In this document: positions 1-16,900 of the stretch, one piece after another | How the letters are laid out: each line of letters begins with the position of its first letter | Position numbering within the stretch: position 1 is the first letter of the stretch | Assembly: GCA_947462335.1 (NCBI GenBank) | Contig: OX381708.1 | Span: 43,527,377-43,591,376, forward strand | Direction: 5' to 3' | Length of the DNA stretch: 64,000 nucleotides | From: Harmothoe impar | Lineage: Eukaryota; Annelida; Polychaeta; Phyllodocida; Polynoidae | Made by a program: the position numbers and the translations under genes | The notes under the pieces: generated by a model | Told to the model about the DNA's origin: nothing | Databases searched by the model: none | Seen by the model: only the letters and a program-made list of their open reading frames with translations

Positions 1-2420
1 CTAAAGGGTTAAATAGCCAATGGGTGGACGTATCTGTCCACCTAAGTGTGGTTCGCCGTGACCCCACTGGTCAATATTAGCTGAACCTAGCATGCTCCCC
101 ACCCACGGGCAACACGTCAGCACACCGACAAAACGAAATAAAATGACCAGACCACGTCCATAGCAAGTTTTTATCGTCCTTATTTTTTATGATAATGCAT
201 GATATTCATCAAGGAAAGACCTATGTGTCCACACGCCTGGCCTTTACTTAAGGTCGGTGGTAGTGGGAGGAGGAGGTGGTAGATGATCCGAGTACGTGCC
301 TCCCTGGCCAATCACTTTGTAAAGTTCATTGGCATTTTCATTTGAATTAACACTCATCAATTGTGTGTCCATATAGGATGAACTTCTCTATGGAAATCCC
401 ACTCTCACCCTACCATTGCCTGTGTTTGCACTAGCTGAGGAGGACACATGAACGTGCATATTAGATTGCTTTTTGTGAGGTCGTCTCATATTCCGCCTCT
501 CATACTGCAATCGTATACGGCATAATCGTAATGCGGCTAGAAGGTTTTAAGTGTTTATGCAAATGTGGAGCTTGATACACTGACTCCAGGGGGTATAGTT
601 ATGCACATGCATGTGTGAACAGATGAACATCTTACTTGTTTCAACAAACGTGATCTGTAGGACTATTGACCTCTCTCTACTCCCTGCATAAAAGCACATT
701 TTTCATATGCTACTTACAGTTGGTGTTTCCTTATATCACAATACAAATATTTCCTGAGCTCAACCATTACCAGAATGATAACGATTTTTATTTCAGCCCA
801 CACCACACGCTCTTCATATTCAAGATATGCGTTGGGTGGGATCCCAACCTGTTGGAGATCGCTCCCTATCAACCGCCTATTATATCTTTGCTAGTAAATT
901 ATGTGACCAAAAGAAATACGTTGTCTGGTCCATATCTAAGTGGTTCCCCATGGTTAAAACTGGGATGTCAGCAGATCAGCCAAAGTAGAGGTATTGGGTT
1001 AAATCTTCCAAGAAGATAACTAGATAATTGCTAAGATGGATTTAACACTGCAAAGTCGATAAACCTCTTCTTCACCATGAGTAGAGCTCGGCAATCTGTG
1101 CGGCACCAATTCTCAGAATGGTGGGAACTGAAGACCTTGCCTGTCTTTATTCCTATCTGCCTTATCTAATTAAGCAGCGGGGAGCCCAGTGGAGTGTGAC
1201 TGGTGCCACACCTCTCCCTAATCACCCACAGTGATTACAGGCGTCGGCACTGATTGGGATCCCACCCAATTAGGTATCTAATGAGGGTGAAACAGGACCC
1301 CCTGGGTCCCGTACAACCGACCCGCGCCTGCACATCAGCTTTCATTACATTATGTTGAAAAAGGTATCATTCATAAAATAGCAGTAGGCTATAGGAGATA
1401 TGGCCTAGCCCCTGCACATTCATAGAAGACCTCATGAATTATATGGCCTAAAAGTAGCACAGCATATTTTTTCATGCACTCCTAATACCCCAAGATTATA
1501 TGATAAGGGGTCGTTATCACATCTGCAAAATTAAGCCACCCATTTGCAGATTTAGGCGTATTTGGCAAATCTCAACTGCTTTTAAGCACCTCAGGGTTTT
1601 AAATCCTTTAACCTGAGTCGTGGCTGGAGGCAACGTGAAAGCGGCTACAGAAACATTTCAGCTATCAAATAGTTTCCATATATCACTATGTATCAGAGAA
1701 CCTGTCCAGAAAATGGGATAAGATTTCTGAACAAGAACCCAGGGGGACTTCAGCAATTGCCTCACTGTGCTGGTGCTTCCACAGTCCTGCGTGTATTAGC
1801 TGCTGGCAATATAGCATATCCATTATGATGAATTTGCTTCTCAGCTGCACACCGGTCTCACATAGATAGGTTGTGGCGTGGGAATAGGAGGGCTGCTACA
1901 GACGGATGCCCCGGGCGCTTATAGCTTCATCTCGTCTGATCGAAACCATCGTTGTAGCGGCAGAAGAAGTTATAGTCTGTTCCATTGCTGGTTGAAAGCT
2001 GGTATCTTTCGTAATATGAAGCTATGACTACAGCAAGGATATTGTATTTTATTTGGAGGTCTATGTAAATTAGCGCACTATATTTTTCAAATTAAAAAGT
2101 GTATTATCATGGAGAAACATTATGCAGTTCAGTGCAGCAATCTCCTGTTCGTTTAGCTAACCCTTTAAAGCCAATGAACATCAATATTCTGCCATATTCT
2201 GAGCCATGGCTTTATCAAATTATATCATTCACATAGCTTTGATTATCATATTTGATACACTATGTCAAAAAAGCAGATTGTAGTTGATGAAATCTGGATT
2301 TTAAATGAATGTGTCTTAGTAACAAAGACATGAACTCCAACTATACATGAAAACCCTTCAACAACAAGCAAGGTATGCATACTGGAATCCAGAGTCATGT
2401 ATGTGTCACTAAATGTATTT
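1..2420. other. Host noncoding sequence left of the element
   Basis: AT-rich, non-repetitive DNA. A frame of 117 codons at 666-1019 has no recognisable domain and no composition change at its ends, so I do not call it. No RNA gene is seen. Confidence 0.5.
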
Positions 2421-2426
2421 GACTTT
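2421..2426. repeat. Target-site duplication, left copy
   Basis: GACTTT lies immediately outside the left terminus. The identical hexamer lies immediately outside the right terminus at 11898-11903. The pre-insertion host sequence would therefore have read AAATGTATTT-GACTTT-ATCAGTGG. Confidence 0.9.
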
Positions 2427-2972
2427 AGTAGTATAGTATGTATCGGAACGGGACTATAGTTAAGTACTGTTTATTACTCAATCGACATGCAGCCAATCAG
2501 AGGCCTCCATTTGGTCACGTGACCGGAAGTGACCTACTTAGGGGATTAGTGGTGCATTCTGGGTAACCCTGCAGCCAATCAGAGGCCACCATTTGGTCAC
2601 GTGACCGGAAGTGACCTACTTAGGGGATTAGTGGTGCATTCTGGGTAACCTACTGACCTACTTAGGGGACCGGAAGTGACGTCATATGACCTAATTTAGG
2701 ATCACGTGACCGGAAGTGACCTGATGAGTCACGTGAGCGGAAGTGACGTCACATGACCTAATGGCCGACCGGAAGTGAGTGACCTCATTGAGGATCACGT
2801 GACCGGAAGTGACTTGATTGATCACGTGAGCGGAAGAAGAAGTTTTTTGTTTAGGAAGTGAGGGTCTTTAGGATCACATGACTGGAAGCGACGTCGTCAC
2901 ATGAGTGACGCTTTAAGAGACTGCGCGACTTACTAGTAAAAGAAGACGTATGAAAATAAAAACACAACAATA
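2427..2972 (+). repeat. Left terminal inverted repeat with promoter-motif array
   Basis: The first 128 bp (2427-2554) match the inverse of 11770-11897 with one difference, at 2487. Further in, the match continues patchily because both ends are built from a variable number of short degenerate units. Each unit combines a CACGTG E-box with an ETS-like CCGGAAGTGAC. Six E-boxes are visible, for example at 2516 and 2598. CCAATCAG boxes lie at 2492 and 2576, and TGACGTCA-type CRE half-sites recur. A last matching block at about 2932-2972 is the inverse of about 10802-10844, so the ancestral repeat was probably about 545 bp long. The repeat may serve as replication origin for protein-primed synthesis and as enhancer; both roles are inference. 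Confidence 0.88.
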
Positions 2973-2973
2973 T

Positions 2974-2997
2974 TTTATTTTATTTTTTTTATTTATT
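2974..2997 (-). terminator. Polyadenylation signals for the leftward genes
   Basis: Three AATAAA hexamers on the minus strand (TTTATT on the plus strand at 2974-2979, 2979-2984 and 2992-2997) lie 64-90 nt beyond the polymerase stop codon at 3061. No AATAAA is found between the PC4-like gene and the polymerase gene, so these may serve both leftward transcripts. Confidence 0.55.
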
Positions 2998-3060
2998 TTT
3001 TTTTCAATCTTGATAAACACTCTATTTTTGAAAAGATGCACACGCTTATTTTTTTTTTTT

Positions 3061-6000
3061 TCATATCTCTAAAGGACTCGTTGTCACACCGTCAGAATGC
3101 ACGCGACGCTTATAATACAAGTAGCGCACGCCGTCTTTCTCTATGGTGTAGGTGACCATTTTGTTTCGCACCACTTTGAAGTTTCTATTTACAGCAATGA
3201 GAGTTTTTCGTTGGCGAAGAACATCCAAGAAGTCGTCTGGTTCCTGAGGGTTTTGTTTCTTCTGTACGCCTTTTGCACTCCATTTTTTGGATTTTCTTTC
3301 ACCGGTGTCGCTGACTCGATCGTAGCAAATGTAAGTCTTAGGGTTGAGACTTAGGATCCCGTCACCTTCCCACTCCGCTTTCATAAGCCCCGAAGTTCTC
3401 AGATCGTGAAGGTACCGTCTCTCACAACATCCGCCGGGCGGCGGACACCATTCTCGCACTCTTTCCGTTTTTGTCTTCACGAAAAGCTCTAAGTGATCGT
3501 CGCACACCGCTGTCGGAAGCCACTTTCGTTTCTCTCTGAAGTACGTCTCTCTCAGGCGAGGTTTGACTAGGTCATCCAACGTGTCACCGCTGAGAGCCAT
3601 GTAAAGACTGTCGGTGTCCATTTGACAAAGGGCATAATCGCGCCGATCGACGAATCTATCCAAGAAGTCGTATGTGAACTCTAACATTTTCAACTTCGCG
3701 TACTGGTATACCATGAACCCTATTTGAATAGGGAGGTTGTTGTTGACTGTTTTCGGTTGTAGTTCGACTTCAAACAGATCGGAACTCAACTCGGACGCCT
3801 TTTTGAAGCGCCACGAATTGGCCAATAGTTCGAACTTCCGACTGTCAGTGTATCTCACCGCCGTGTGTTTTTCTTTGTTGCAGATTGTTTTACCGTACGT
3901 AGCGTTTCCCATTAACTTGTAACAGTCTGACAGAATTTTCTCGTTCTCGTTCACGTCGCCACGTCTTCGCGCCGCCGTTACTTCGTCCGCGAAACCGGCA
4001 AAGGAGCGTTTAGGTAGGTATTCTACCACCAGCTGCACTTTGGTGACTATCAAACCGTGCTCTAAATACCACTTGAGAAGCGGCGTTCCCAAGAGAATAT
4101 TTTTTCCGTGGTAACTCCCTATCAGACATCTCTGAGGCGTGTTCAACAGCTTTTCTTCCTGCGCAAAGTCTGACATGTGAGGTCCTATGTCCGATTTTGA
4201 AACGGTCGCGTTCTTGAAAACGGGGGTCATTTCTTCGAAGTAGTCTCGTAGGTGAGGCGGCGTAGTGATGTCCACTTGAACTAAACCGAACATTTTCTCC
4301 TCTTTCACAGCGGAAAGGATGTCGCTCTCGCTCATCGCGTTTCGAGACACTTTCAAAGCGTCAACCTTCCAGCGTTGTTGGGAGGCCTTGACCCGCTCAT
4401 CTCGACGCTTCATCTCTCGCCATTCGCACTCCCACACGACGACCAGCTTGTGACCTAGCGCTTTCAAGTAAGCGCTTACTCTGGTCGTTCTGTCGCGTCT
4501 CTCCTCTCTCAGTGAAGCGCACTGATATCGGTGCGACGGTATGCACTCGTGAGCGTGGAACCAACACCCGTGAAACTGGAAAACCGTATTAGAGGCCGCG
4601 TGAAACCCGTCCACGCGAATTCTCCGACAGCCTACAACCATCTCGCCGCCGTTCAAAGCGTGGCGCAGTTTCACGTCGCGGTCGTGCTCTACGAAGCGTA
4701 ACCACTCCAAAGCGCTGTGAGAGTTTCTTTGCCTAATTTCGGGCTTGAACTCGGTCTCGGGCCGTCTCACCGCGTAATAGCCCGTGCAGTGCGCTTCGCT
4801 CATGCAGCGCAAGTACAGAGAGTTAGCGTCTAGTCCTAGGATGTGTTGGCACGGTCTCGCTTCTTCGCCGTACTTGTGCTCCCTTATCCGCGTGGTGCCC
4901 TTCTCGTGAAATCTATGGAAGATGATGGAAGGACCGCCGACTAGATTTTCTTTGATCAGAGCGTGGAGGCCGGCGTCGAACTGGGGGAACGTTGTGAACG
5001 CGTCTTCTAGGTTTTGGAAGAGGAACCGTAAAGTCAAACCGGCGAGAGAAACTCCGTCTTTCAACATGTCAATGCCGCGATCTTGGAAAAATTTAGCGTG
5101 ATTTTTCAGAGCTTCTATGAAAGGTTTGACGTCTTTGTTGTTGTAGTGGATCAAGTAGTCTTCCATAGTTTGCATCTTCTCGTCGGACCAAACTTTCTGA
5201 CATGCGGCGTAGTCGGATTCGGACATTTTGACGCCCGTCAGCTCGCTGTCGAAAGCCGATCTCGGTGGCAGCGTTCTGTTTGCCAGTTTCCTGGTAGACG
5301 TCATCCATTCGTAAGGAAAGTGACCTTTCTCTTCGTTCCTGGTGAAAGCTCGCAAATAGGTCGCGTAGTTGTAACCGGGTGCCAAATAGTTGACTACGTC
5401 CAAGAAAACCGTGTGCTGTGTGTAAACCGCCAAGTATTGATTGCTTCTCTTTATGACGCTGAATTCTTGGTTTCTTCGGTCTCCGGAGGCGAAGAACGGG
5501 TGAAGGCGTATTTTGATCAGGTTCAAGTCGTAACGCCCCGAGTTGAAGCCCACGACTGGAGCTTGACGGATGTATCTCAGAAGACGCTTCTTCAGTTGAA
5601 CTAACGGGTGTCTGGTCTGAGCCGCAGCGAAGCCGCCTGGAGAAGGGGTGAACGTCGCCTCCTCCAGCAGGAGAGCTTCACCTATCGCCGCATCTAACTT
5701 CGCTAAGGTCGGTCGGTAAAGTTCTAGCACAGCTTCCCCGATGACTTTGGCGTTCTCGTTTATGTGATTTAAAACTCGGTCCAACAAGGGGTCGGAATCT
5801 GCGTCGGATTCTCTGACGAAGCAGACGGGCCCCTCCCACCCCGGAAAGTCGGATGCGACGCTAGCCGACAAAGGGACGTGATCCCACAGCAGGGACACGT
5901 GTTCCGTCGACGGTTCTTTGCACGGTCTGAAGAAAGCCTCGAAATCGAAGGCGATCTTGTAAGGGTAGATTCCGGAATGTCCGTCGGGGGGAAAAATGGA

Positions 6001-7158
6001 GAAGTCTGCTAGCGCTTCGAAAATCGTTCTCGAATTTTGGTAGATGCCACCTACGTAGCGCAACTTGACTTGTCGGCAAGAGGAAAGCTGGTTCCTGTGT
6101 CTCTTCAGCAAGAACTCGGTGGTGAACGCCGCCTTACACTTGCAACATTCGTATATGCCCGCGTACGCGTTGAAGTCCGTGACGAGAGAGACGTGCAAAC
6201 CGCCTTTCGCCGTCAGGTGTAGGTTGACTTTACCTCGGGCGGCCAGAGTTCTGGAAGGCGGTCTGATCAGAGTAACGCGTCTTCTCAACTTCCGCCCCGG
6301 CACTTGACGCGACGCGGTGTAAACCGCTATCTGTACGTCAAACAAGTTCTCTAACGCGGGTAAGTCGCGGATGTTCAGACCCGGAAAGGATTCAGGTGTG
6401 GCAGCAGGACAGAACTGACGTAACAAATCTGAAGCGCGCTTGCTGGTGTTGTATAAGTGAAAGGAAATGCAGCGGAAGATGCAGAGGTTGTCCTTGTTGG
6501 GAAAATCTAACACGCCGCTTCTCTTTCCAACTCGACCGGCCTGAGTGATCCTACCGCCTATGGGGAATTCCCCCGGTCCCATGTAAACGCAAATGTTCAA
6601 ATTGGTAGGAAAAAGAACGTGCCACTTGGTGTCAGCGTCGCAAAGTTTCCGTACTTCCTCGCAAGCGACGGTGTTTTCCATCTTTGAGAGGAGCTCTTCC
6701 AAAGTTTCTGAATTAGTTATAGTAGGGAGCGGTTGTATGAGAGTTGCATTGTTCTGGGAGGCCTGAAAGTAGCGCAGTTTGCTCTTGTCTTCTCTGTGTT
6801 GTAAGAGTAAGCCTACCGAGAAACCCACTTTGTATCTGAATCTTTGTGTCAAGTGAATGCGACGCATAGTATCTACAGCGTCACTCAACTCGCCGGTTGG
6901 TAGCCTGTGCATCCTGACGCCCGTTTGTATCGCAGGCCAATTCGCCGTGAACGTTTCCTCCCCGTTCGGTACAGCACATATGCGCGGAGGGACGGTCACC
7001 CCGTCCAGAGATTCGCGTCGACAGGCGATCTTTCGGCAATCGCCTTCGCCGCATAGAGGGCAAAACTTAGGTACTACTCTACAATTTTCTACGTGTCTCT
7101 CGTGGTTGTACGGTCTTTTAAACATTTTGAAACACTTTTCGCATACGTACTGTGTCAT
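3061..7158 (-). CDS. Family-B (DNA_pol_B_2 type) DNA polymerase with zinc fingers, OTU-like and nuclease-like domains
   Basis: This 1,365-aa protein should copy the element, probably by protein priming in the nucleus as its relatives do. A C2H2 finger lies at residues 6-26 (C6, C9, H19, H22), with a Cys cluster at 33-46. A segment at 217-327 has the OTU-type pattern DNLCIFR (C226) and a later GLHVSL (H322). A second zinc ribbon or finger lies at 338-361. The 3'-5' exonuclease motifs are FDFEAF (D405, E407), GFNSGRYD (N539, D544) and YNNKD (Y662, D666). Polymerase motif A is LDANSLY (D777), motif B is KLMGNATYG (about 1081-1089) and motif C is MDTDSLY (D1181, D1183). Between motifs A and B, residues about 838-915 (VDGF, FQFHGCWFH, VVWECEW) resemble the Vsr/restriction-like insert of many Polinton-type polymerases. 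All catalytic residues are present and there is no frameshift. The start is a true ATG, the first in frame. No TATA box lies upstream, so it may be expressed by read-through from the PC4-like gene. Confidence 0.95.
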   Translation of the reverse strand: MTQYVCEKCFKMFKRPYNHERHVENCRVVPKFCPLCGEGDCRKIACRRESLDGVTVPPRICAVPNGEETFTANWPAIQTGVRMHRLPTGELSDAVDTMRRIHLTQRFRYKVGFSVGLLLQHREDKSKLRYFQASQNNATLIQPLPTITNSETLEELLSKMENTVACEEVRKLCDADTKWHVLFPTNLNICVYMGPGEFPIGGRITQAGRVGKRSGVLDFPNKDNLCIFRCISFHLYNTSKRASDLLRQFCPAATPESFPGLNIRDLPALENLFDVQIAVYTASRQVPGRKLRRRVTLIRPPSRTLAARGKVNLHLTAKGGLHVSLVTDFNAYAGIYECCKCKAAFTTEFLLKRHRNQLSSCRQVKLRYVGGIYQNSRTIFEALADFSIFPPDGHSGIYPYKIAFDFEAFFRPCKEPSTEHVSLLWDHVPLSASVASDFPGWEGPVCFVRESDADSDPLLDRVLNHINENAKVIGEAVLELYRPTLAKLDAAIGEALLLEEATFTPSPGGFAAAQTRHPLVQLKKRLLRYIRQAPVVGFNSGRYDLNLIKIRLHPFFASGDRRNQEFSVIKRSNQYLAVYTQHTVFLDVVNYLAPGYNYATYLRAFTRNEEKGHFPYEWMTSTRKLANRTLPPRSAFDSELTGVKMSESDYAACQKVWSDEKMQTMEDYLIHYNNKDVKPFIEALKNHAKFFQDRGIDMLKDGVSLAGLTLRFLFQNLEDAFTTFPQFDAGLHALIKENLVGGPSIIFHRFHEKGTTRIREHKYGEEARPCQHILGLDANSLYLRCMSEAHCTGYYAVRRPETEFKPEIRQRNSHSALEWLRFVEHDRDVKLRHALNGGEMVVGCRRIRVDGFHAASNTVFQFHGCWFHAHECIPSHRYQCASLREERRDRTTRVSAYLKALGHKLVVVWECEWREMKRRDERVKASQQRWKVDALKVSRNAMSESDILSAVKEEKMFGLVQVDITTPPHLRDYFEEMTPVFKNATVSKSDIGPHMSDFAQEEKLLNTPQRCLIGSYHGKNILLGTPLLKWYLEHGLIVTKVQLVVEYLPKRSFAGFADEVTAARRRGDVNENEKILSDCYKLMGNATYGKTICNKEKHTAVRYTDSRKFELLANSWRFKKASELSSDLFEVELQPKTVNNNLPIQIGFMVYQYAKLKMLEFTYDFLDRFVDRRDYALCQMDTDSLYMALSGDTLDDLVKPRLRETYFREKRKWLPTAVCDDHLELFVKTKTERVREWCPPPGGCCERRYLHDLRTSGLMKAEWEGDGILSLNPKTYICYDRVSDTGERKSKKWSAKGVQKKQNPQEPDDFLDVLRQRKTLIAVNRNFKVVRNKMVTYTIEKDGVRYLYYKRRVHSDGVTTSPLEI

Positions 7159-7197
7159 GTTTTTTTTTCACTCAGTTACCAACTACTTAGCCGTCTA

Positions 7198-7303
7198 ACT
7201 ATCTATCTATCTATCAATCTATCTGTCTATCTATCTATCTATTTATCTTTCTGTCTGCTGTCTGTGTATCCGTCTGTCTGTCTCATACAGCGTACGTCAA
7301 ACG

Positions 7304-7344
<41 letters not shown>
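7198..7344. repeat. Microsatellites (CTAT)n and (TG)n between the two leftward genes
   Basis: The 205-bp gap between the polymerase ATG and the upstream stop codon is nearly filled by a tetranucleotide CTAT/CTGT run (about 7198-7285) and a TG run (about 7304-7340). I see no TATA box, CCAAT box or polyadenylation signal in it. Confidence 0.9.
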
Positions 7345-7348
<4 letters not shown>

Positions 7349-7363
7349 AGCGTTGAGCGTCTC

Positions 7364-8498
7364 TCATTCCGAATCTATGCCGAGATATTTCAGAATGATC
7401 TCTGTTTTGTCATCCAACTCTTTGAGCGCTCTGGCGGACAGCGTCACTCCCTGCTGTGTGGGTTTTTTGTCAGGACCTTTGTACTTGCGCACGTGGACGA
7501 GGTTCTTACCGCTGTAGTAGCTCACAGCTGCGTACACTTCGCCCTCCTCATCCAGCACTGCGAACCAGGGGGTGTGATTAGGTTTTCCTTGCGCGGCCGC
7601 TGTGTCGCGTATGCGCACCACTGCGCGGATATCGGCGATGCGTGCTATTAGCTCGCGCAGCGCGTCGGTCGTGAAGTGCACTCGCTTGCTTCTGGTCAGA
7701 GACGCCTCTTTCACCTGGCCGTCTTTTGTGTAGCGCGGCCTCCTAGACAGTCTAGCCACGTCCTCCCAGATCTCCAGCGTCAAAGCTCCGTCTAAGCAGA
7801 ACTCTAACCCGAGAAGACGGGAGAAGGTTTTCTCTGCTTCTTCTCGTCCATCTCGTTCTTTTTCTTGTATTTTTCTCTTCTTACTAGGCCTTGTTGTTCT
7901 GGAACTCACCTTAGAACGTTTCACACCCGCAGGATGAGTAACACCATCAGCGTGAGCTGAATCAGCAGCAGAACCGATAGCAGGAGCAGCGTCAGCGCTG
8001 GTGGTATCCGAGGCCTCGTTGTTGGAACCGCGCAGCCACACGCCGTCGGTGCTGAGTGTAGCGGTAGAAGATGAAGCGCCGCCGCCCTCGTAAGGTGGCG
8101 GTGAGGGCAGTCGCCACGGATCGGACGGGACGCTACTAGTGGAGGAAGTGAGGTCGAAAGGTCGAAGAGGGAAGCCGAAAAACGTACCGCCCACCCCTTT
8201 CCCTTCGGGTTGTTCGTACGCCTCGTCGTCAGCGTCGTTCTCTGTCTCACCCTGTTGCTGCTGCTCCTCCTCCTCCTCCTCTTCTTCTCGGTTTAGGGGC
8301 TGAGTGTCCGAATAGCTGTCACTCTCAGCGCGAGCGGCGTCGAGGGCGTCGGTCGATGTAGTGGTGGAGGAGAGGGGCTGTGCAACGTGCGGCAGGTCAT
8401 CAAAGTCATCAACAGTAGTGGGGAGGTAAAAACCCGGTTGCCAGTACTGCGCTGTGCCAGGAGCGTTGTCGTCAGTAGTAGTAGCGGTAGCAGCAGGT

Positions 8499-8554
<56 letters not shown>

Positions 8555-8962
8555 CGCAACAGTAGCAGGCGCAGCAGCCTCAGCAGGCGCAGCAGTAGCA
8601 GGCGCAGCGGTAGCAGGTGCAGCAGCAGCAGCAGCCGCAGCAGGCGGGGCGGCAGTAGCAGCGGCAGCGCGCTTAGCAGCAACGTGTACCGTCGCGAGTG
8701 TAACAACGTCGCTAGCACGACGACTACTACCAGTAGTAGTACTACTACTACTACTACTACTACTAGTACTACTACTGCTACTACTACTGCTACTACTACT
8801 ACTACTGCCGCGAGCGCTCGCTACAGCGGGAGGGTGATAAGACCAAGCGGCTGCGGCGGTAGTCTCATTTTCAGTAGCAAGAGGAGGCACTGACGCTAAA
8901 CGAGCGCTGTTCCGCGTAGTCTTCTTGTTCTTGGACGGCGCTAGGTGTTGTCTTTTGCTCAT
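7364..8962 (-). CDS. Low-complexity nuclear protein with two PC4-like ssDNA-binding domains
   Basis: This 532-aa protein probably coats single-stranded DNA or acts as a transcription cofactor for the element. The ATG at 8962 is in a strong Kozak context (ACC ATG A). The frame is open further upstream but only a TTG lies there. Residues about 52-75 are mostly Ser, 95-160 are Ala-rich and 227-238 are Glu/Gln-rich. PSKKRKI at about 360 is a monopartite nuclear localisation signal. The last 145 residues are ordered. The final segment (YYSGKNLVHVRKY, then KKPTQQGVTLSARALKEL) follows the PC4 pattern of two strands, a basic KGxxL turn and an amphipathic helix. The preceding segment (about 392-448, ending VHFTTDALRELIARI) looks like a second, more diverged copy. 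PC4 works as a dimer, so a tandem copy could form the fold within one chain. The PC4 call is by eye. A TATA box sits about 60 bp upstream. Confidence 0.85.
8493..8800. repeat. Trinucleotide repeats inside the PC4-like gene
   Basis: A pure (AGC)n run at about 8493-8551 encodes the longest Ala tract, and a (TAC)n/(TAG)n region at about 8730-8800 encodes the Ser tract. The repeats keep frame, so length changes alter only the homopolymer lengths. They also keep several antisense frames open, which should not be mistaken for genes. Confidence 0.9.
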
Positions 8963-9020
8963 GGTGGTGACTGTAGAGAGCAGCAAAAGAATGAGTGAGT
9001 GAATGGAGGTTTCCAGACCC

Positions 9021-9028
9021 CTTATATA
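9021..9028 (-). promoter_or_regulatory. TATA box of the leftward transcript
   Basis: TATATAAG on the minus strand lies 59 bp before the ATG of the PC4-like gene. A start about 30 bp downstream would leave a 5' leader of roughly 30 nt, with the strong-context ATG at 8962 as the first ATG. Confidence 0.65.
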
Positions 9029-9044
9029 CGCCTTCTCGCTTCTA

Positions 9045-9410
9045 GAGCTAAGCTACTTACTGACCCTGTTCAGCTGCCGCCGGCTGGCCGGCGGCCATTC
9101 ACAAAGAGAAACAAAAGACATAAGGCATGACGTTTTCAGCTGGATCCCTTTCCCCCCTTTTTGAGAGATCGACTGTCATGAGCTAAGCCGCTTACCACCC
9201 TGTTCAGCAATTCAACGCGCATTAGCTGTATAAAGGATTAAGCGGTTGCTGCCGTCGACTGACCGGCGGCCATTCACAAAGACATAAGGTATGACGTTTT
9301 CAGCTGGATCCCTTTCCCCTCTTTTTTTTTGAGGGATCCACTGTCATGAGCTAAGCCACTTACCACCCTGTTCAGCCATTCAGCGCGCGTTAGCTGTATA
9401 AAGGATTAAC
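9045..9410. repeat. Duplicated control-region repeat, about 168-bp period, 2.4 copies
   Basis: The block starting GAGCTAAGC is present at 9178 and 9346, with a first copy at 9045 that lacks an internal 40-bp piece. Shared parts include CACCCTGTTCAGC, GCGGCCATTCACAAAG, ATGACGTTTTCAGCTGGATC (9127 and 9291) and AGCTGTATAAAGGATTAA. The last gives plus-strand TATAAAGG boxes at 9229 and 9397, exactly 168 bp apart. The core TTTTCAGCTGG recurs once more near 9764. The repeat lies between divergent genes and is probably a duplicated enhancer or promoter. Confidence 0.85.
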
Positions 9411-9905
9411 GGTGATGAGCTTAGAGTGTGTATACAAAAAAAAACTACAGGAGGCGTGTGGCGTGAAGCAGGACCCCCCTAAGACGAACGTGTCTGTCTG
9501 TGAGTAGAGGCGTGTGCATGTGGTGAGCGACTTAAGTGTAAGACAAAAAAAAAATCACCACCTCCTGCCGTGGTGAGTAGACCGGGCCGGCCAGGCGGCG
9601 GCCGGCTAGTTCAATAGGGAGGGGTGACAGCTGACTAAGGCTGTGCATGAAAAAAATCCGATTTTCACCTGACCTCTGACGTTTGTTACAATGAATGTCA
9701 GAGGGAGGGAGGCGTCCTCAGGTAGGGGGTAGGAGGTAAGGCTATGGATGAGGAAGAAACACCGTTTTCAGCTGGTCTCCACGGATAGCGATGACACACC
9801 CCTCGTCATCTAAGCTCTTAAGGAGCGGAGCGGTTGAAAAAGCGTCATGCGGACAGGTCGCTACACAGCTGGAGTGCTGTTGGAAATGGGATTAAACTCC
9901 CTCTG
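9410..9905. other. Remaining divergent intergenic region of the element
   Basis: No coding frame is seen. The stretch has short A-runs, a GC-rich patch with GGCCGG palindromes at 9580-9608 and AGGAGG-type purine tracts. The plus-strand promoter follows directly. Confidence 0.5.
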
Positions 9906-9914
9906 TATAAAAAG
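9906..9914 (+). promoter_or_regulatory. TATA box of the Death-domain gene
   Basis: TATAAAAAG lies 155 bp before the ATG at 10061. With a start near 9935 the leader is about 125 nt, contains no earlier ATG and carries a long GCC repeat. Confidence 0.6.
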
Positions 9915-9969
9915 CTCTGATTTCTGTTGGAAAAAAACCATATCGCCTCTGACCACAGTAACGTCTACT

Positions 9970-9979
9970 ACCACCACCA

Positions 9980-10048
<69 letters not shown>
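9970..10048 (+). repeat. (GCC)n/(ACC)n repeat in the 5' leader of the Death-domain gene
   Basis: About 26 CCN triplets, the last roughly 19 of them uninterrupted GCC, end 12 bp before the start codon. Such a leader would be strongly structured and could dampen translation; that effect is inferred. Confidence 0.9.
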
Positions 10049-10060
10049 AGACGAGACGAG

Positions 10061-10801
10061 ATGGCTCAAGCTATTCCACTTTCAAGCTCGCCTTCACCGC
10101 CTTGTCCACCTGAAAAAAAGTTAATGCGGCTTGACGACGTGAGACGCGCGAGGCAGACCGATGGGGAGAACAGAGAGGTAGGACAGCGGCGGTTAGCCTA
10201 TAGCGACGCCTTGCTTCGTCAACTAGGTAAAGAGTTGAGCGGCTGTTGGAGAGAGTTGGGCAGTAGCTTAAAAGTTACCGCCGCCCGTATGGATGCTCTA
10301 GTAGAGCGCAGTGTCAAGACACCGGAGGAGCTGTGTACGGCGATGTTCCGAGTCTGGTGGGGTGAAACCCCGCATCGTCATAGATGGGGAGAGCTCGGTC
10401 GCGTCTTCACCCGCATTAGACGCGTGGAACTGTTGGCTCAGTGGATGTCCCTTCTCCACAGACAGGGGTTGGATTTCGAAAACCCCGACTCGCGCGCGAT
10501 GCATAAGCACTTGGGCACCCTCGGCAGACGTCTAGGTAGCAGGTGGAAAGAGGTGGGGGACCATTTAAAATTGTCGCCTGAGAGGTTAGATAAGATCGCT
10601 GAAGAATGCGAATACGGAGGAAGTCCCGCTGAGTGGGCCTTCCGAGTGTTGAAAATGTGGCAAGATGAAGCTGACGGTGCCGGCGGTACACCTTTTGAAC
10701 TCCTTCGAGTGTTGACTGAGGACATGGGAAAGTTTGACCTCGGCATCGCGATATTACTTGACTTTATCAAGCAAGAAACAACGAGAACGACGGACATGTG
10801 A
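10061..10801 (+). CDS. Tandem Death-domain protein, candidate host cell-death modulator
   Basis: This 246-aa protein has no signal peptide or membrane segment. After a Pro/Ser-rich and basic N-terminus (1-48) come two modules of about 85 residues with the same plan. The first (about 50-128) reads LRQLGKELSGCWRELGSSL, then RMDAL and TAMFRVWWGE, and the second (about 147-236) reads LGRRLGSRWKEVGDHLKLS, then RLDKIAEE and AFRVLKMWQDE. The order of a leading helix, a conserved W with (E)LG/VG, an L-D-x-I helix, a φ-x-φ-L-x-x-W helix and a final LL..L helix is the Death-domain signature. Death domains carry apoptotic and innate immune signals by homotypic contacts. A protein made only of two of them would act as a decoy or adaptor, much as viral FLIPs use two death-effector domains. 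The ATG has G at -3 and +4. The gene runs opposite to the replication genes, from its own TATA box. The function is inferred, and the fold call is by pattern. Confidence 0.88.
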   Translation: MAQAIPLSSSPSPPCPPEKKLMRLDDVRRARQTDGENREVGQRRLAYSDALLRQLGKELSGCWRELGSSLKVTAARMDALVERSVKTPEELCTAMFRVWWGETPHRHRWGELGRVFTRIRRVELLAQWMSLLHRQGLDFENPDSRAMHKHLGTLGRRLGSRWKEVGDHLKLSPERLDKIAEECEYGGSPAEWAFRVLKMWQDEADGAGGTPFELLRVLTEDMGKFDLGIAILLDFIKQETTRTTDM

Positions 10802-10953
10802 ATTGTTGTGTTTTATTTTCATACGTCTTCTTTATTAGTAAGTAAAAAAAAAAAAAAATCATAACAATTAAGACGCGCGCCCTCTTTAAGTGTCACTTCC
10901 TCCAGTCGCAGCTGATCGCCTCATCGAAGCACGTGATAAACAAAAAAAAACGA

Positions 10954-10995
10954 AGAGACACGCTTCTTCCTCTCGAGAGGAAGAAGCGTGTCTCT
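10954..10995. repeat. Perfect 42-bp palindrome
   Basis: Two 21-nt arms meet at CTCGAG (10972-10977) without a mismatch or spacer. The arm reads AGAGACACGCTTCTTCCTCTC. The palindrome lies in the part of the right end that the left end lacks, downstream of the Death-domain gene. Confidence 0.95.
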
Positions 10996-11049
10996 CGATT
11001 GAAATCTTTTTCTTTTCTTTTTTTCTTAAAAGAGACAAACGCCCCTTAG

Positions 11050-11213
11050 AGTGCCCCCCCCACCCCCCTAGAGTGCCCCCCTCCCCCCTCCCCCCCTCCC
11101 CCCCCACCACTCGCCCCATGCATCCTAAAAGCGCCCCCCTCCCCATGCATCTTAAAGGGGCCCCCCTCCCCTTCCCTCCCCTCCCCTCCCCTCCCCTCCC
11201 CCCCCCCTTTATA
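11050..11213. repeat. C-rich low-complexity tract
   Basis: The tract is C and CT runs with embedded CATGCATC(C/T)TAAA repeats at about 11117 and 11144 and AGAGTGCCCCCC at 11049 and 11071. No coding capacity is seen. Confidence 0.85.
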
Positions 11214-11270
11214 CACTCTAAAGAACGCTTCTACCTAGTTCAATAAGTCACTTCCAGTCGCTCGTAAAAC

Positions 11271-11276
11271 AATAAA
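11271..11276 (+). terminator. Candidate polyadenylation signal of the Death-domain gene
   Basis: This is the first plus-strand AATAAA after the stop codon at 10801, about 470 nt downstream. No nearer AATAAA or ATTAAA is seen. Confidence 0.4.
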
Positions 11277-11345
11277 AAATGAAAAAAAACAAAAACTTAT
11301 ATCGTAGTGTTTTTTATTAGTTTACCGAAAAAAATAAGAGACTCG

Positions 11346-11404
11346 CCTCCTCCTCCTCCTCCTCTCCTCCTCCTCCTCCTCCTCCTCCTCCTCCTCCTCC
11401 TCCA
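11346..11404. repeat. (CTC)n microsatellite
   Basis: Nearly pure CTC repeats lie inside the expanded right end. A (CTT)n run follows at 11480-11501, where the left end has only GAAGAAGAAG. Confidence 0.9.
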
Positions 11405-11897
11405 AAAAAAAAGATATCACATTTTAAAGCGCGTGACCCCTTAAAGACGCTCATCTCTTCATTAAGTCGCGTGACGTCACTTCTTCTTCTTCTTCTTCTT
11501 CCGGTCACGTGATCAATCAGGTCACTTCCGGTCACGTGATCCTCAATCAGGTCACTCACTTCCGGTTGGCCATTAGGTCATGTGACGTCACTTCCGGTCA
11601 CGTGACTCATCAGGTCACTTCCGGTCACGTGATCCTAAAGTAGGTCACTTCCGGTCCCCTAAGTAGGTCATATGACGTCACTTCCGGTCCATAAGTAGGT
11701 CATATGACCTCACTTCCGGTCACGTGACCAAATGGCGGCCTCTGATTGGCTAACTAGGTCACGTGACCTCACCACTAATCCCCTAAGTAGGTCACTTCCG
11801 GTCACGTGACCAAATGGAGGCCTCTGATTGGCTGCAGGTCGATTGAGTAATAAACAGTACTTAACTATAGTCCCGTTCCGATACATACTATACTACT

Positions 11898-11903
11898 GAC
11901 TTT
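11898..11903. repeat. Target-site duplication, right copy
   Basis: GACTTT directly follows the right terminus (…TACTACT) and matches 2421-2426 exactly. Six base pairs is the usual staggered-cut size for Polinton-type integrases. Confidence 0.9.

Positions 11904-13198: not shown

Positions 13199-16900
<3,702 letters not shown>

Follow-up and report, generated by a model that had tools for sequence, protein, structure and literature searches.

Intact vertebrate Mavericks (Polintons) measure 12.7–24.6 kb, and the sections of PMC8097293 drawn on here give (AGT)2//(ACT)2 as their most frequent terminal motif, with inverted ends of 402 +/- 276 bp and 6-bp target site duplications. Repeats of the (AGT)2 type are described there as permitting jumping back during protein-primed replication. 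Among related replicators, transpovirons parasitise giant viruses, according to the excerpts of PMC11071308 used here. We analysed a 64,000-nucleotide stretch of the polychaete Harmothoe impar (contig OX381708.1, positions 43,527,377 to 43,591,376 of the forward strand), hereafter the window, and describe in it a unit of 9,471 bp with ends of this kind and three genes, coding for a protein-primed-type family B DNA polymerase (PolB), a PC4-domain protein and a Death-domain protein. The unit is a real, tidy element, a variant of the polinton kind and not a new kind. Our preferred reading, to which we assign a probability of about one half, is that it represents an integrated protein-primed replicon of polinton (Maverick/adintovirus) descent that lacks integrase and capsid genes of its own and obtains integrase, and perhaps capsids, from elsewhere.

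Results

Maverick-type ends bound the unit

The unit spans positions 2427–11897 and is bracketed by two copies of GACTTT:

2421–2426, no strand: target site duplication, left copy, GACTTT, 6 bp
2427–2842, forward strand: left terminal inverted repeat, first letters AGTAGT, with six CACGTGA[CG]CGGAAG units
11492–11897, reverse strand: right terminal inverted repeat, last letters ACTACT, with six CACGTGA[CG]CGGAAG units on the reverse strand
11898–11903, no strand: target site duplication, right copy, GACTTT, 6 bp

The terminal repeats are 99% complementary over the outermost 128 nt and 96% over the inner part (2687–2842/11492–11647); at full length (416 versus 406 nt), a gapped alignment gives 87%. 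Terminal inverted repeats with (AGT)2//(ACT)2 and a 6-bp duplication, the hallmarks of a Polinton/Maverick, are both present, and the end motif together with the duplication argues strongly for insertion by a Maverick-type integrase. To gauge chance, we collected, across the window, inverted exact 14-mer pairs separated by 2–40 kb whose immediately outer 6-mers were the same. Fourteen pairs emerged, 13 of them trivial (palindromic 6-mer, inside the terminal repeats); the remaining one was 2427/11897, and as it is the sole non-trivial pair in the window, a chance origin of the unit was rejected. An earlier note, made from the letters of this DNA, had proposed the same boundaries, long inverted ends (measured here at about 410 bp) and a perfect GACTTT duplication, all of which were confirmed, and its view of the duplication as Polinton-type is strengthened by ends like those given for vertebrate Mavericks in the cited part of PMC8097293.

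CACGTG occurs six times in the left and seven times in the right terminal repeat (shuffle means 0.16–0.17), CCGGAAGT six and eight times (0.01–0.02), and each repeat has two copies of TGACGTCA and two of CCAATCA. We take these motifs to be E-box, ETS, CRE and CCAAT sites, respectively. The terminal repeats may double as promoters or origin, for which adenovirus ends are the model. The unit exceeds its flanks in G+C (0.514 versus 0.429) and its CpG is undepleted (1.08 versus 0.51), pointing to a recent arrival or to escape from methylation.

A polinton-type polymerase with a displaced nuclease

Three genes were found in the unit, each open from ATG to stop, and nothing further was recognised. 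The PolB and PC4 genes run leftward and the Death gene rightward, in a tidy order that diverges from a single intergenic region:

3061–7158, reverse strand: protein-primed-type B DNA polymerase, 1365 amino acids (aa)
7364–8962, reverse strand: 532-aa protein with a low-complexity N-terminal part, a C-terminal PC4 domain at the cutoff edge and a possible second PC4-like domain preceding it
8963–10060, no strand: intergenic region from which the PC4 and Death genes diverge, containing repeated blocks, a putative two-way promoter
10061–10801, forward strand: 246-aa protein with two Death domains

PolB comprises C2H2-like fingers, a candidate priming region, an OTU protease, an exonuclease, motif A, a Vsr-like nuclease, and motifs B and C. 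The whole protein matches Pfam DNA_pol_B_2 (5.7e-7, 29.2 bits, cutoff 25.8), and with OTU, exonuclease and palm in place the polymerase is of Polinton type, as had been proposed. Its layout is that of the protein-primed family B polymerase of Polintons/Mavericks (TP-vOTU-EXO-PALM), and the OTU-like N-terminal domain by which adintovirus PolB is defined is also present. The OTU Cys and His occur in 33 of 33 aligned rows, Thr177 is the candidate priming residue, and the fingers, sub-cutoff in the window's PolB, are called in several relatives. Among the viral matches to the predicted N-terminal model are two parvovirus-labelled structural proteins, at ranks 3 and 8. Polymerase motifs, OTU domain and jumping-back ends together make a good case, at the level of sequence, that the unit would be copied by protein priming with its own polymerase.

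The Vsr-like domain matches Vsr nucleases weakly (E 0.02) and the endonuclease family phrog_13076 at E 7.1e-6. Its residues D850 and H868 are present in 33 of 33 rows, and two PolB relatives carry JGI names as Vsr proteins. Domain order was surveyed in 84 proteins (the window's and 83 matches); a pattern search found both motifs in 65, and 19 were unscored. The Vsr-like domain begins 73–83 residues past motif A in 61 of the 65 proteins scored and precedes it in four (P0073, P0074, P0081 and the snake PolB P0082). The last, our PolB for comparison (DNA_pol_B_2 in Pfam, 1.2e-44), has a Vsr-like domain 34% identical to that of the window over 121 residues, and the family profile of the window's PolB matches it from the OTU part through the C terminus. 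Because of this identity and profile match, the window's PolB lineage is, judging from the alignments, a sister form of at least the snake P0082 PolB, with the nuclease placed differently. In P0073, P0074 and P0081, which are partial and cover 30–32% of the query, the domain lies 445–765 residues upstream of motif A, and a PF07498 domain is found in P0073 and P0081; these three possibly constitute a third polymerase arrangement.

No integrase or virion gene is recognised

We searched the three proteins and 10 of the 82 listed frames against Pfam, a scan that covered few of the other-register frames over the genes and could miss spliced or badly decayed genes. Within this scope no rve integrase, capsid, ATPase or protease was detected and no further match rose above cutoff, in keeping with the absence of integrase and virion genes from the earlier description. 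Of the genes that mark known groups, the scan yielded neither the retroviral-type (rve) integrase of Polintons/Mavericks nor their major and minor capsid proteins, packaging ATPase and protease, nor the parvovirus-type NS1 helicase and VP that stand beside PolB in bidnaviruses. The hexon and the chromodomain-bearing rve integrase of adintoviruses were not found either, as judged from frames and Pfam, without a hexon BLASTp. The longest frame lying entirely outside the three genes encodes 118 aa in a C-rich stretch. At 9,471 bp the unit also falls short of the length range of intact vertebrate Mavericks. As no integrase is recognised in the unit, supply from elsewhere is a fair proposition, and only fair because a deleted copy would look alike.

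PC4-domain and Death-domain proteins accompany the polymerase

In the 532-aa protein, Pfam places PC4 in one stretch (9.1e-5, 22.3 bits), under the cutoff of 25; the final 83 residues alone reach 25.9 bits for PF02229 against the same cutoff. Their best PDB match is PC4/p15, at E 0.98, and the PC4-protein relative P0087 scores 20.6 bits for PF02229 (cutoff 25). Neither Pfam nor the PDB gave a match to the upstream PC4-like half. A low-confidence model (mean predicted local distance difference test score 48.7) predicts two units of similar secondary structure, strands then helix, one of them in this upstream half, with structure-comparison scores below 5.

The Death protein matches Pfam Death (PF00531) in two stretches (2.7e-7, 31.1 bits, cutoff 22.6), as do its relatives P0085 (28.9 bits) and P0086 (37.9 bits), and its closest PDB entry by sequence is RIPK1 (E 0.012). 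No effector domain was detected by Pfam in its 246 residues. Since no effector stands beside the two Death domains, a decoy that blocks death signalling would be no worse a fit than a killer. A Death-domain gene would be unusual cargo for a polinton-type element: in the open-access papers searched, none combined polinton with both death domain and DNA polymerase, or polB with PC4 and polinton. The best-ranked papers listed for Maverick, Polinton and death domain made no mention of a death domain, and a search aimed at satellite and non-autonomous Mavericks gave no match. The words 'death' and 'PC4' are absent from the main text of PMC11071296.

The gene content given in the earlier note can be refined accordingly. 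Its replication module stands, as a polymerase plus a candidate single-stranded DNA binder without recognised virion or integrase genes, and the tandem Death domain is borne out by the two Pfam stretches. Of the tandem PC4, the C-terminal domain is retained at the cutoff edge, and the upstream half, seen in a weak model, is a possible second domain. The three genes are intact in being open from ATG to stop, with the qualification that PolB is 10 residues shorter than the 98%-identical P0001 owing to two in-frame gaps. The 'host-death module', by comparison, proved to be a domain name, which suits a death-blocking decoy at least equally. A shortened copy would look the same as either alternative offered in the note, an integrase borrowed in trans or an undescribed small lineage.

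Relatives of the three proteins

A protein collection gave 83 matches to PolB, led by relatives with 98% (P0001), 76% and 65% identity; the first is an independent entry whose longest contig measures 9,882 bp. Relatives of the Death protein share 100% (partial), 78% and 55% identity with it, and the PC4 protein has a relative at 76%. Set alongside polymerases at 98, 76 and 65%, the identities of the Death and PC4 relatives suggest that the trio was kept through one or two splits. The longest contig is 9–10 kb in 7 of the 83 polymerase matches and 16–18 kb in 7, lengths that we did not use as satellite evidence. In a tree built from the window's PolB plus 69 of the 83 matches (P0070–P0083 dropped; quick method, with long-branch warnings), the window's protein groups with P0001, P0002 and P0003, adjoining P0004–P0006 and P0025.

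IMG/VR returned no relative, whether queried with single proteins (the polymerase, P0006 and P0082), with alignments (three of the polymerase family and one of the Death protein) or with the terminal 20 bases; phage records gave no match. Two scans of GTDB contigs produced a sole match, QGON01000007.1, from a tubeworm-symbiont metagenome-assembled genome; its PolB frame (1543–3450) is 28% identical in the best segment and is cut off by the contig end. Upstream of it, on the same strand, lies a 271-aa gene (199–1014) that shows no match to the PC4 protein (E 0.47) and no family above cutoff (TMEM174, 16.4 bits versus 27). By eye, its final 110 residues look somewhat Bcl-2-like; if so, this would be a second case of a death-related gene beside this polymerase type.

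Intergenic region and flanks

In the PC4–Death intergenic region, three blocks (84, 49 and 35 bp) at 9073–9409 are each duplicated once, at a spacing of 164–175 bp and 91–96% alike, and the region may serve as a two-way promoter. A CCN codon run (proline run) at 9962–10060 abuts the ATG of the Death gene upstream, in frame and with no intervening stop. To the right of the element lies an (AT)n run of 100 bp (13209–13308). Nine frames compared with Pfam for host genes in the window gave none above cutoff and one weak match (E 0.047); the window has no match in Rfam, and a tRNA search found none.

Discussion

We propose the following mechanism. A linear DNA would be copied from both ends by protein priming, a hydroxyl residue in the N-terminal region of PolB, Thr177, receiving the first nucleotide and the AGTAGT repeat allowing the new end to jump back, adenovirus-like. 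The OTU domain would cleave off the priming part of PolB, and the PC4 protein would cover single strands as they are displaced. With their many promoter-type sites, the inverted ends would function as both origin and promoters. The Death-domain protein could act as a decoy inside host death or alarm complexes. The integrase, and perhaps the capsids, would come from a full Maverick or adintovirus recognising the AGTAGT ends, which would amount to a satellite lifestyle. Packaging in a foreign capsid and the Death-domain decoy are guesses. If the scheme is true, a chromosomal Maverick-ended copy that brings its own polymerase, and in which neither virion nor integrase genes are recognised, would make the Maverick dependence of movement directly testable.

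Several observations weigh against this reading. No helper element, second copy or empty site was seen, the host genome beyond the window lying outside the searches. PolB matched no LF/PAD (priming-domain) structure; the upstream PC4-like domain is without sequence support and the C-terminal one only at the cutoff; and the Pfam scan covered only 10 of the 82 listed frames. The relatives of the trio come from separate protein searches, which cannot demonstrate joint travel, and contigs of 16–18 kb in 7 of the 83 polymerase matches leave space for a full Maverick. The AGTAGT motif is short, and replication alone could preserve it. A more specific version, attractive and unproven, is conceivable at short of even odds: a small satellite lineage of animal genomes with its own polinton-type polymerase (nuclease oddly placed), a single-stranded DNA binder and a Death-domain protein. 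Such a lineage may, with the same reservation, owe its retention of Maverick ends to the spread of its replicons by Maverick or adintovirus integrases, perhaps with capsids, and would be the equivalent in animals of transpovirons and phage satellites.

The unit might also derive by internal deletion from a full Maverick or adintovirus that shares its polymerase lineage, and have been moved by the integrase of longer relatives with integrase and capsid genes between the same ends. The Maverick class in general has integrase and capsids. Intact vertebrate examples are longer than the 9,471-bp unit (12.7–24.6 kb in the cited part of PMC8097293), and the 16–18 kb contigs would suit longer relatives. 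Yet the scanned frames showed no recognisable trace of any further Maverick gene, the gene order is tidy, with two leftward genes, one rightward gene and a single intergenic region, and predicted proteins related to the Death and PC4 proteins persist at 55–78% identity. We regard a deletion as rather unlikely. The unit might instead belong, as a single segment, to a multipartite DNA virus whose shell and integrase genes sit on other same-ended segments. A bidna-like virus with up to twelve segments is described in the excerpts of PMC8363768 (also PMC11071296), and the parvovirus-labelled structural proteins among the N-terminal matches point the same way; however, the unit keeps the OTU Cys and His, which are replaced in bidnavirids (PMC11071308, section cited), an integrase-type 6-bp duplication flanks it, and other segments are not known, which makes this explanation improbable.

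We consider it still more doubtful that the element is self-sufficient and inserts by an unrecognised enzyme, for example aided by the Vsr-like nuclease of PolB or by a host recombinase. The conserved D850 and H868, the Vsr and phrog_13076 matches and the two Vsr-named relatives lend the idea some substance. Against it, Vsr nucleases nick at mismatches and no strand joining by them is known, a similar domain occurs in the snake P0082 PolB and is hence not peculiar to the unit, and the 6-bp duplication and Maverick ends suit a DDE integrase. Unrelated repeats around old genes, brought together by chance or misassembly, have a negligible probability: only 2427/11897 passes the inverted 14-mer test, and a 98%-identical polymerase is independently present, with a longest contig of 9,882 bp.

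Non-autonomous DNA transposons and phage satellites depend on an enzyme in trans, as the replicon of our preferred reading would; non-autonomous transposons, unlike the unit, seldom have a replicative polymerase of their own. As far as the cited excerpts describe these groups, the unit resembles vertebrate Mavericks/Polintons in (AGT)2//(ACT)2, the 6-bp duplication, terminal repeats a few hundred base pairs long, uninterrupted genes and a protein-primed PolB, but differs in its length (9.5 kb versus 12.7–24.6 kb), in its unrecognised integrase, ATPase, protease and capsid genes, and in genes that point outward where Maverick modules generally face the centre (PMC8097293). It shares with adintoviruses the OTU-like domain on PolB, and the named relatives of its polymerase are from animals, whereas the hexon and chromodomain rve integrase of their definition are unrecognised in it (PMC11071296). 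A polinton-type PolB without polinton capsid genes is found in bidnaviruses too, from which the unit departs in lacking a recognised parvovirus NS1 or VP, in keeping the OTU active-site residues and in its 6-bp duplication (PMC11071308; PMC11071296). In contrast to transpovirons and cytoplasmic linear plasmids, it is chromosomally integrated, has Maverick ends and no PolB helicase fusion was seen; like them, it is a polinton-related replicator that has kept replication and lost the structural module (PMC11071308).
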